Shown here: one piece after another, positions 35,134 to 39,329 of the stretch
How the letters are laid out: every line of letters begins with the position of its first letter
How positions within the stretch are numbered: position 1 is the first letter of the stretch
DNA from: Fabrea salina
Taxonomy: Eukaryota > Ciliophora > Heterotrichea > Heterotrichida > Fabreidae
Direction: 5' to 3'
DNA length: 64,000 bases
Assembly: GCA_022984795.1 (NCBI GenBank)
Contig: JALIHJ010000038.1
Location: 124,001-188,000 of the forward strand
Made by a program: the position numbers and the translations under genes
The notes under the pieces: generated by a model
Seen by the model: the letters and a program-made list of their open reading frames with translations, nothing else
The model's database searches: none
What the model was told of the DNA's origin: nothing

Positions 35134-36030
35134 TTAAACTTTATTCCTCCATAGAACGATTTCTTGTTGCTTGAAGTACCTTCTGTCTTCTTCGTCCACT
35201 AAAACCAAGTTCAGGAAGTACCTGACTGAAAAGTTGTTGTTCACGTTCAGGTATGTAGGAGTTAAGTCAAAGGTGTCTAAAAACACCCTGATCGGAATGT
35301 TTTCTCCCCTAACAGGAGCTCCGTCCATGACTTCGAACTTGCCTATGGTTTCGTTCTCGTTGGTAGCTTGTGACCCTGCCCCAATAGTTTCTCTCCTAAT
35401 TATAGCAATCTCCATGTACTTAATGCGGATCCTCACTAAAAGGAAGTAAACTTTCCCCACAATGGAGTCTTGCAGATGGTACTTGTGCCTGTTGTACTGA
35501 AACTCTATGTGCAAGCAGTCCTCAATTCCTACTTCCATTTTAATGGATGTGTCGTCTTCAGGTTCGTTCGTGGGGTTCATCACGCAGAACTCCTTTTCCC
35601 TAACTATGTTGCTAGAAAGGCCCCTTGTAATTGTGACCTTAACTAAGTAGCGGAGTCGTGCATAGCGTCCTAAGTAAGTTTCATAAGGCTTTTCCACCTT
35701 GTTAAAAGAAAAAGGTATGGCAACTGAGTCAGTGATGGTTCCAGGGGGCTCGAGTCCTCTGTTGAGGGAAAGGAAGTCAATAGACTGGTTGCGTTCGTAG
35801 GTAACGTCTATGCGGCCCAGAAGTTCCACTTTAATTCCTTGGTGTTCTAGTTTTTTGCCCCTTTTGACGTTAATGTTGATCTTGCCAGTGAGGTCCTCGT
35901 CGCCACAGTAGACAGGGAGTGTGTGGTATTTGCCAGAGTGGTCTTTGAGGGTTGAGGTTTTGCGTGTGTCAACTCCGTCGAGTTCAAGGCTTACTTCTGC
36001 TTTGGAACCAAACTACTTAGTACTTACCAT
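35134..36030 (-). CDS. VPS26: VPS26 retromer subunit; intron directly after ATG
   Basis: The model is complement(join(35134..36012,36028..36030)), 293 residues. Exon 1 contributes only the ATG. Exon 2 continues [18 protein letters not shown], then [34 protein letters not shown] and [20 protein letters not shown], all in the order known for VPS26. The C-terminal arrestin-like half has [30 protein letters not shown] and [28 protein letters not shown]26 is the arrestin-fold subunit of retromer, which recycles receptors from endosomes. The intron fits the A10 rule. Start identity is strong because MFGSK is the usual VPS26 opening. Confidence 0.96.
36013..36027 (-). other. 15-nt intron in VPS26, directly after the initiator ATG
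   Basis: On the minus strand it is GTAAGTACTAAGTAG, A at position 10, placed between ATG and TTT GGT TCC. The protein begins M|FGSK. Confidence 0.93.
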
Positions 36031-36872: not shown

Positions 36873-37877
36873 TTAAAGGTCCCAACCTTCTTTTTTGTAC
36901 CTCCAGTAGTCCAGCCCTTCCAGCATTGCACTTGCTAAAGGAATTACTAAAGCATACCTTGCTAAAGTAGCAAGTGAGTTGCAAAAGTACCCTCTGTAAA
37001 GTCCACCTACAAGCCCTTCTTCGTGGTAGATCTTAGACAAAGCATATTGCACTCCTTTGTAGCGTCTAGGGAGCATTGTGTGGTCGCTGCTTTGAGCTTC
37101 AAGTCTTCTCTGAACTGTGTTTAGTGGATAGCAAACAGAGTACCCTAATAAGGCACACACTAACTGGTTCTCAACTGAAGCCCCAGAACTAGCTAGGATT
37201 GCTGAGATGCTTAGTCCGAAGTTCATAGGCATTACTAAACTCCAGCCTTGGAAAGCTTCTCTAAAAGACATTTTGTTAACAAAGGTAAAAATGCTTCTGT
37301 AAGTGTTGAACTCGTGTATTCTGTTTTGCAGAATAAGTCTAGTTTGGAAGTTGTGCAGGGGCTGGCAAGCAACATCTGCCAAAGTAGCTATTCCAAGTCC
37401 CAACAACCACTTTGAAAACCCTAAGTCTAGACTGTCTGTGCTAAGTAGCTTTACTAAGCCTAACTTCATAGTTAAACTTGAAAGGTAGTGCATGAAGTCA
37501 GCTCCGTTTCCTTTGAAAAACCCTTTGTAGCCTTGACCTGCCAGACCCAAAAAGACTTCTCTGTAGTTGTTGTAAATTGGGGCTCTGAAAGGTTTGTTTT
37601 CGCCAATCATTCCACTTGCCAGTTGCAAAGCGTTAAACTGTCTTTCTTGCACAGCAAGTTCGTAACTTTTGGCCAGTTCTAGTCTAGCAATGGCTTTGGT
37701 TTCTTCACCGTAAAAACCTTTGTTTGCCCTTACTGAGAGTTGAAGAGTCACTCCTAAGACCCTGAAAGGAGCAGTTAGTGTTGAGGCAACGAAGTAAGAT
37801 ACTCCTTGGGAGTTTATGGCTTCCGAGGTTTTTTCTTTCCTGGCTTTTTTATGAATTTCTTTGTACTTGCGTTCCAT
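36873..37877 (-). CDS. Mitochondrial carrier family protein, ADP/ATP carrier-like
   Basis: The protein has 334 residues and three repeats of the carrier fold. The signature prolines remain but the motifs are altered: PFRVLG, PLHNFQTRL and PLNTVQRRLEAQ. In true carriers they read PxDxxxxR or KxR. The third repeat ends KIYHEEGLVGGLYRGYFCN, a standard carrier block. The RRL pattern resembles the ADP/ATP carrier RRRMMM box but lacks its identity. It is probably a divergent AAC-like or orphan carrier of the inner mitochondrial membrane. The N-terminus is basic. Confidence 0.85.
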   Translation of the reverse strand: MERKYKEIHKKARKEKTSEAINSQGVSYFVASTLTAPFRVLGVTLQLSVRANKGFYGEETKAIARLELAKSYELAVQERQFNALQLASGMIGENKPFRAPIYNNYREVFLGLAGQGYKGFFKGNGADFMHYLSSLTMKLGLVKLLSTDSLDLGFSKWLLGLGIATLADVACQPLHNFQTRLILQNRIHEFNTYRSIFTFVNKMSFREAFQGWSLVMPMNFGLSISAILASSGASVENQLVCALLGYSVCYPLNTVQRRLEAQSSDHTMLPRRYKGVQYALSKIYHEEGLVGGLYRGYFCNSLATLARYALVIPLASAMLEGLDYWRYKKEGWDL

Positions 37878-37919
37878 TTATTAGCAATGCAGTTAAGTAA
37901 ACTTTTAAAGGCTAACTAA

Positions 37920-39329
37920 ATGTAATCTCTAAACAGGAGAGACACACAAACTGTAGGCAACTACAACATTTCCAAGAATATAGGAGAAGGCACTTTTGGA
38001 AAGGTCAAACTAGGCACTCACAACTTAACAGGCGAAAAAGTTGCTGTGAAGGTACTTGAAAAAGCCAGAATACTTGACGCCAACGACGTTGATCGAGTAG
38101 CCCGCGAAATCCACATCTTAAAACTCTTGAGACACCCCAACATTATCCAACTCTACGAAATAATAGAAACTCCTAAACAGCTTTATTTGATTATGGAATA
38201 CGCTAGCGGGGGAGAACTTTTTGACTACATAGTTGCCCAAAGTCGCGTTAAGGAGCAAGAAGCTTGCAAGTTCTTCCAGCAAATAATTTCAGGTATTGAG
38301 TACATCCACGAACTTAACGTTGTACACAGAGACTTGAAACCTGAGAACCTTTTGCTCGACTCAAACAAAAACATCAAAATTGTTGATTTTGGACTCAGCA
38401 ACACCTACAAACCAGGGCAAATGCTAAAAACCGCCTGTGGAAGCCCTTGTTACGCAGCCCCCGAAATGATTGCAGGCAAGTACTACCATGGGTCTAGAGT
38501 AGACATATGGAGCTCAGGAGTGATTTTGTTTGCGCTGATTTGTGGGTTTTTGCCTTTTGAAGACCCAGTTACTTCTGTGCTTTACAAGAAGATTACAAAC
38601 GGCGAGTTCAAAATACCTAGTTTCGTTTCCCAGTCTGCTTCAGACTTAATCAGAAGTATCCTCAATACAAGCCCCGAAACCAGGTACACTGTTGACCAAA
38701 TCAAAAACCACGTTTGGTTTAAGTCCCAAACACAAACCCTCCACAAAGGAATCAAAGTCGGAATAGAAAGCATTCCTATAGACTATGAAACCTTACGAAA
38801 ACTAGAAGGCTACGGATTCAGCACTGAACAAGTCCAAAAAAACCTTCAAAACAACAAACACAACCATCTTACCACCACTTACTACTTGCTTCTTAAAAAA
38901 GCCAGAAAAGACCCCAATGCAATTACCCAACCAGAAGCCCCCGAACCACCTACAAGGGCCCTTCCAGTTCCCAAGTTGCCTCTGGGAAACAGACCCGTCA
39001 CTCCTCCAAGACCCACTACTGACCGAAGGTCTGACAGAACGTCCCCTAGAAACCCCATCCAAGCAGCCAAGCCTCCCTACAACACTTCTTGCTTTTCTTG
39101 CAAGCCCTCTTCAAGCATATTCAAGCAAATTCTTTTTGCACTGTCTAAACTCAGAATTAACTACAAAATCCATAACCATTATGGAATAACTACTCCGCAG
39201 TTCAAGGCTGAAATAAAACTTGTAGAAGGAACCCAAGCTATCTACTACTTAGAAGTGACTCCTCTTTGTAGGGACAAAAAGCAATTCCAGGCAGTTGCTG
39301 CACAATTTATTTCTTTAATAGATTTGTAA
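37920..39329 (+). CDS. SNF1/AMPK-type catalytic kinase; intron splits the start codon
   Basis: The model is join(37920..37921,37937..39329), 464 residues. The spliced start is AT|G, then RDTQTVGNYNISKNIGEG. The kinase has GEGTFGKV, HRDLKPEN and DFGLSN, with an activating Thr in MLKTACGSPCYAAPE. A UBA-like autoinhibitory segment (YETLRKLEGYGFSTEQ) and a C-terminal AMPK-C domain ending FQAVAAQFISLIDL follow, which is the full AMPK alpha layout. AMPK senses energy state with beta and gamma subunits, none of which is in this window. The acceptor ends CAG, the only one of the seven clear introns not ending TAG. No other usable ATG is upstream. Confidence 0.95.
37922..37936 (+). other. 15-nt intron splitting the SNF1 initiator codon
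   Basis: GTAATCTCTAAACAG, A at position 10, lies between AT (37920-37921) and G (37937). It restores ATG followed by the conserved N-terminus. Confidence 0.88.

Follow-up and report, generated by a model that had tools for sequence, protein, structure and literature searches.

In the heterotrich ciliate Fabrea salina, a predicted 15-nt intron lies inside the initiator codon of an SNF1/AMPK-alpha gene, and the observation is real and, on the evidence of the sequence, well supported. It is very probably a minimal, constitutive spliceosomal intron in phase 2 of codon 1 that was inherited by four SNF1/AMPK-alpha-like genes. The window analysed here is one stretch of 64,000 nucleotides (G000:C35:124001-188000; GC content about 42%) in a genome of 18,328,466 bases and 103 contigs. 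Features are listed in Table 1, and a slash marks an intron boundary throughout.

Table 1 Features at and near the divided start codon (window positions).
Feature	Position	Strand	Remarks
Intron candidate directly after ATG (36030-36028), ATG/GTAAGTACTAAGTAG/TTT	36013..36027	-	A at position 10; neighbouring gene named VPS26 in the original prediction
Gap of 42 nt from the AT/G start to the opening Met (at 37877) in the frame of the divergent neighbour	37878..37919	.	bounds the 5' leader unless both overlap
Upstream ATG with a 10-codon frame ending in TAA directly before AT/G	37887..37919	+	read from the sequence
AT of the initiator codon, end of the 5' exon	37920..37921	+	read from the sequence; layout common to three paralogs
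Predicted 15-nt spliceosomal intron GTAATCTCTAAACAG, GT-AG, A at position 10	37922..37936	+	letters 2-4 are the in-frame TAA of the unspliced RNA
Second exon, with the last letter of ATG and the remaining SNF1/AMPK-alpha kinase frame	37937..39329	+	464 aa when spliced

Structure of the divided start codon

Read directly from position 37920, the sequence runs AT GTAATCTCTAAACAG GAGAGACACACAAACTGTAGGC. The parts named in the original prediction (AT, the 15-mer and the G at 37937) are all present, and removal of the 15-mer joins AT to G in the kinase frame. The resulting order of codons is ATG AGA GAC ACA CAA ACT GTA GGC, and the 464-residue product begins MRDTQTVGNYNISKNIGEGTFGKV, with the N-terminus MRDTQTVGNY. 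The kinase frame of the window is open under the standard code. When the 15-mer is left in place, TAA directly follows ATG, and the sequence thus agrees with the earlier description of the unspliced RNA as AUG UAA, a start followed at once by a stop.

The stretch 37922-37936 has the length (15), the GT...AG ends and the A at position 10 of its intron class; the letter is present at that position, and its use as branch point is predicted. By the GT-AG rule the intron interrupts the start codon, with a boundary that may slide by one base while the product stays unchanged. Drawn by the product alone, the intron could equally be ATG/TAA...AGG/, and it is the GT-AG rule that sets it at AT/G. Because the first G of the intron is the same letter as the G of the second exon, a contiguous ATG is found at 37920-37922 in the unspliced RNA as well. 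The in-frame stop after this AUG comes automatically with a phase-2 intron whose first letters are GTAA. Splicing swaps the third base of ATG for an identical one and changes the next codon from TAA to AGA. The original prediction that splicing creates the initiator therefore needs to be reworded, since the same AUG already stands in the unspliced RNA and splicing supplies the link to the frame by removing UAA. Its further claim, that translation of the kinase is strictly splice-dependent, holds in that UAA does close the unspliced frame, but there is nothing special in this, because any intron with an in-frame stop has such an effect.

The spliced window protein matches Pfam Pkinase at 5.3e-80. 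Among PDB sequences its top 15 matches are all chains of AMPK alpha-1 or alpha-2, the strongest at 3.1e-96, and MARK3 comes next at 2.5e-90. The phmmer match to AMPK alpha-1 extends to residue 421 of 467, and no Pfam model of the C-terminal alpha domain, the part that binds beta and gamma, matches. The gene is assigned to SNF1/AMPK alpha by its kinase domain, which is closest to that of AMPK alpha.

Other possible starts of translation

Six GT...AG stretches of 14-25 nt lie within 37878-38030, and 37922-37936 is the only one that is 15-16 nt long; alternative introns of 18 and 20 nt from 37922 give no ATG. When these stretches and the in-frame ATGs around the start were checked, no other ATG able to serve the kinase N-terminus was found, as had been claimed. 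The first ATG, GTG or TTG codon of the unspliced frame is GTG at 38046, and an in-frame ATG does not occur again until 38193, at residue 87 (MEYASGGELF) inside the kinase domain. The ATG at 37887 was considered as the kinase start and rejected, as no GT-AG stretch of 14-25 nt was found to connect its frame to the kinase frame.

Translation might nevertheless start elsewhere (in an exon further upstream, at a codon other than AUG, or at Met 87 within the kinase), with the AT/G layout a coincidence. An upstream ATG does exist, and some relatives are annotated or called from an internal Met such as MEYASGG; a hidden start, however, would itself cause such calls. A start at Met 87 would also drop the glycine loop and the VAVK catalytic-lysine region, the divergent neighbour lies no more than 42 nt away, with the AT/G one as the sole GT-AG stretch of 15-16 nt found there, and the layout recurs in all four of the closest paralogs. 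A start elsewhere is thus very improbable.

Four SNF1-like genes with the same layout

Kinase loci of the genome (468 candidates, of which 91 were scored) were searched for the AT/G layout in its GTAA form with A at position 10, within 1500 nt and on the same strand. The four best matches, L001 (the window gene) to L004, have identities of 100, 67, 59 and 65%, and the next ones reach at most 51%. The pattern AT/GTAA-N5-A-N3-AG/G was found in all four of these closest SNF1-like genes, 6-66 nt upstream of the match start, and in this form and range in 0 of the 87 other scored matches (Fisher 3.7e-7, with matches taken as independent). The idea that AT/G is a general habit of kinase genes was rejected on the same count.

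From -200 to +60 nt of the match start, the sole 15-mer of the form GTA-N6-A-N3-AG in L001-L004 is the AT/G one, and its TAA is the in-frame stop. No such 15-mer is found in the same span of L005-L010, where all six have an intact in-frame ATG. The four introns are GTAATCTCTAAACAG, GTAAGTGCTAAGTAG, GTAAGGGCCAGTTAG and GTAAAATTCAATTAG; their interiors differ, while GTAA, AG and the A at position 10 are common to 4/4.

In L003 there is another Met at residue 7 (M7) as well as an in-frame ATG 24 nt upstream of AT/G, and L004 has a further Met candidate, M22. Since these two genes have other Met candidates, L001 and L002 are the only ones with a strict need for the AT/G start. The upstream ATG of L003 (G000:C29; MIENFKKK) could lengthen the protein if the leader includes it. 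P0017, a protein identical to L002, has an unspliced form (MLSRSEAS...), which fits genomic DNA and gives no proof of splicing.

Introns at start codons across the genome

The loose pattern ATGTAA-N9-AGG occurs 144 times in the genome and 87 times in a reversed control, and the stricter AT+GTAA-N5-A-N3-AG+G occurs 72 times compared with 20. A chance origin of the AT/G in the window was rejected on this excess over control, on the position of the window copy, in frame and immediately ahead of a kinase domain, and on the four paralogs. Each of the 72 sites was then sorted by the length of its ORF and by codon score. At least six read as the start of a gene that encodes a recognised protein or has a long open frame: the four SNF1-like genes, a UFM1-like gene and L055 (328 residues). 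L046 is a possible further gene start, and the other sites read as internal Met codons or as no gene. Six is a lower bound, because a start soon followed by a second intron would look short. In the UFM1-like gene (L071, G000:C49:166370-166387) the same layout reads GTAATCCACACTTAG, and the first 45 of its 86 residues match Pfam Ufm1 at 6.4e-17. The search for further AT/G cases proposed at the outset was thus run within this genome, and it returned at least the three SNF1-like paralogs, the UFM1-like gene and L055 as gene starts.

Introns directly after the start codon were counted in the same way. The pattern ATG/GTAA-N5-A-N3-AG occurs 90 times genome-wide and 33 times in the control. About 10 of 40 classified places look like gene starts (about every second of the 90 was taken, with one duplicate collapsed and one locus holding two sites). 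Among these starts we recognised what we take to be proteasome alpha, histone H2A, ribosomal protein L38 and roadblock/LC7. For A/TG, 130 sites were counted genome-wide and 18 in the control, and no clear gene start was seen among the 20 of 130 examined. By these counts, introns directly after ATG seem commoner than AT/G ones.

One of the 90 ATG/GTAA sites belongs to the minus-strand neighbour listed in Table 1. Its ATG and intron candidate were found 1.9 kb from the kinase start, in line with the distance of about 1.9 kb first given for the ATG intron of the gene named VPS26. Within the window, an ab initio intron search by coding score was too strict, leaving only 2 stop-bearing introns, and a consensus intron scan gave few sites above control.

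Comparison with known introns

Start-codon-disrupting introns form a class that PMC1626468 calls relatively rare; the paper also reports that introns directly after ATG are overabundant. The Fabrea case is like that class in that an intron interrupts the initiator codon; it differs from the vertebrates, arthropods, fungi and flowering plants plotted there in being 15 nt long and common to four paralogs. In Yarrowia lipolytica, 47 genes are reported in part of PMC2911113 to have only the A of ATG as first coding exon, and parts of PMC13309789 list 42 introns whose 5' splice site follows one of the three start-codon letters, A, T or G. As predicted for Fabrea, the start codon is assembled by splicing, and most retained Yarrowia introns bring an early stop, according to the same portions of these papers. 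The form reported there is A/TG with a median intron of 196 nt, whereas in Fabrea it is AT/G with 15 nt.

In size and ends, the Fabrea 15-mer looks like an ordinary heterotrich intron. Introns of 15-16 nt are given for Stentor, with the branch A at position 10 in 90.9% (sections of PMC9505925), and for Blepharisma (sections of PMC9942806); the Fabrea 15-mer is alike in its length and GT-AG ends and has its A at position 10 as in Stentor. The term 'start codon' occurs 0 times in the main text of either paper, and this position is untreated there under that name. Fifteen nucleotides is the smallest reported intron size, as stated in part of PMC12862383. Tiny Nyctotherus introns tend to hold in-frame stops or to have a length that is not 3n, so that retained introns end translation early (from sections of PMC2633312). 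No ciliate case of an intron-split start codon was found in the literature searched by titles and abstract openings, which is no proof of absence.

Proposed origin and role of the intron

We propose that the 15-mer is an ordinary minimal heterotrich spliceosomal intron in phase 2 of codon 1 that is constitutively removed. The common ancestor of this lineage's SNF1-like genes probably already had it, and the four closest members would have kept it at the same point through duplication. Splicing would turn AUG-UAA into AUG-AGA and so open the frame; RNA that retains the intron would give only a start-stop at that AUG and would presumably be decayed or left untranslated. The sequence, its frame, the splice signals, the excess over control and the pattern among the kinase genes are observed, whereas we infer that the cell removes the 15-mer, how old the intron is and what becomes of unspliced RNA.

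In Arabidopsis NIP5;1, an AUGUAA in the leader stalls ribosomes and triggers mRNA decay (PMC11915504). Splicing of the Fabrea start-codon intron might be modulated, with AMPK output tuned by the retained AUG-UAA, which would trap ribosomes or mark the RNA for decay. The retention of the intron position in four paralogs would suit such a switch. However, AUG-UAA arises automatically from any GTAA intron at AT/G, as in the UFM1-like gene and L055, and the AMPK-beta gene, of which the genome has one match, seems from its sequence to have an intact start codon. We consider a regulated switch of this kind very unlikely, and scarcely more credit is due to the reading in which the intron is an ancient, selectively kept control point of heterotrich SNF1/AMPK, with splicing that follows cell state and a retained AUG-UAA trap that lowers kinase output. 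Independent insertion at AT/G in four genes, at a site that favours introns, is as poor a prospect as the switch. In its favour, introns do recur at or next to start codons (the 90 ATG/GTAA sites against 33 in the control, with roughly a quarter of those classified being gene starts). Against it, AT/G seems uncommon as a start: of the 72 sites at least 6 read as gene starts, including 4 from the SNF1-like family, with more perhaps hidden by short frames, and none was seen at the 87 other scored kinase matches.

Inheritance of one constitutive intron would make this what looks like an old feature of a known rare kind, not a new mechanism. The class of start-codon introns is already known; the additions are the 15-nt size, the AT/G point and the retention in four sister kinases, which is the part of most interest. 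If confirmed by cDNA, it would mean that an initiator codon can house an intron of the smallest reported size and that four kinase genes, long separated, have retained it at that point. These four genes also offer a simple test set for the decay of unspliced AUG-UAA RNA.

Relatives and age of the intron

A tree of 68 kinases was built with a quick method, SH-aLRT values only and a midpoint root; 18 of its 65 inner branches have values below 80. The window gene groups with AMPK-alpha-like ORFs and the Blepharisma proteins P0009 and P0191 (14 rows, SH-aLRT 90), and L003 groups with Blepharisma P0074 and P0092 (SH-aLRT 97), with a program warning that the long L003 branch is unsure. L002 and L004 are placed elsewhere with weak support. 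If this grouping is right, L001 and L003 separated before the split of Fabrea and Blepharisma, and the intron is then probably old and inherited through duplication. The spliced N-terminus of L003, MSRSSSMPRR, has the same initiator Met, the AT/G Met, as annotated Blepharisma P0074 (MSRSSSVPRR) and P0092 (MSRSSSISRH).

Plain ORF callers cannot see AT/G starts. In public calls and annotations, 10 of the 13 relatives in the tree group of the window gene, including Blepharisma P0191, begin at or inside the kinase domain. Such starts would be expected from a hidden start, though an intron deeper in the gene would also produce them. Together, hidden starts and these 10 of 13 relatives suggest that the N-termini of heterotrich kinases may be widely misannotated. 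P0002, a 98% identical relative, begins at the residue of the GTG at 38046, where the unspliced window frame has its earliest bacterial start codon; this would suit a lack of an intact ATG in P0002 as well. Internal-Met starts such as MEYASGG are found in P0139, P0157, P0191, P0169 and P0170. Several relatives, for example P0045 and P0073, which look like genomic ORFs, seem to start with an intact codon, so the start-codon intron is not universal. P0061 begins LIFR/ALASD..., which would fit an unspliced AT/G intron in another ciliate (split codon AGG = R), although this is weak evidence. No protein with the spliced N-terminus was present among the 120 best rows of each of three protein searches. 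Scans for heterotrich DNA of other species gave no relative in 20 stretches of viral_contigs, and in genome_contigs the titles shown for the best 80 kinase loci were all prokaryote records.

Three annotated SNF1-like proteins of Blepharisma stoltei (P0139, P0157 and P0191) start MEYA or MEFA inside the kinase domain, and their true start is perhaps hidden by introns. Separately, a stop-less, in-frame 15-nt intron candidate lies within the kinase domain of L004 (G000:C9; YE/VIPKQ/IIETP), and its retention would leave the frame open. Five extra residues at the same place are seen in ORF calls that look genomic (VILIQ in P0045, VILKQ in P0073, VISTQ in P0069, VIPIQ in P0122 and VKFIQ in P0061), and Stentor SteCoe_6823 (P0060) is annotated without them.
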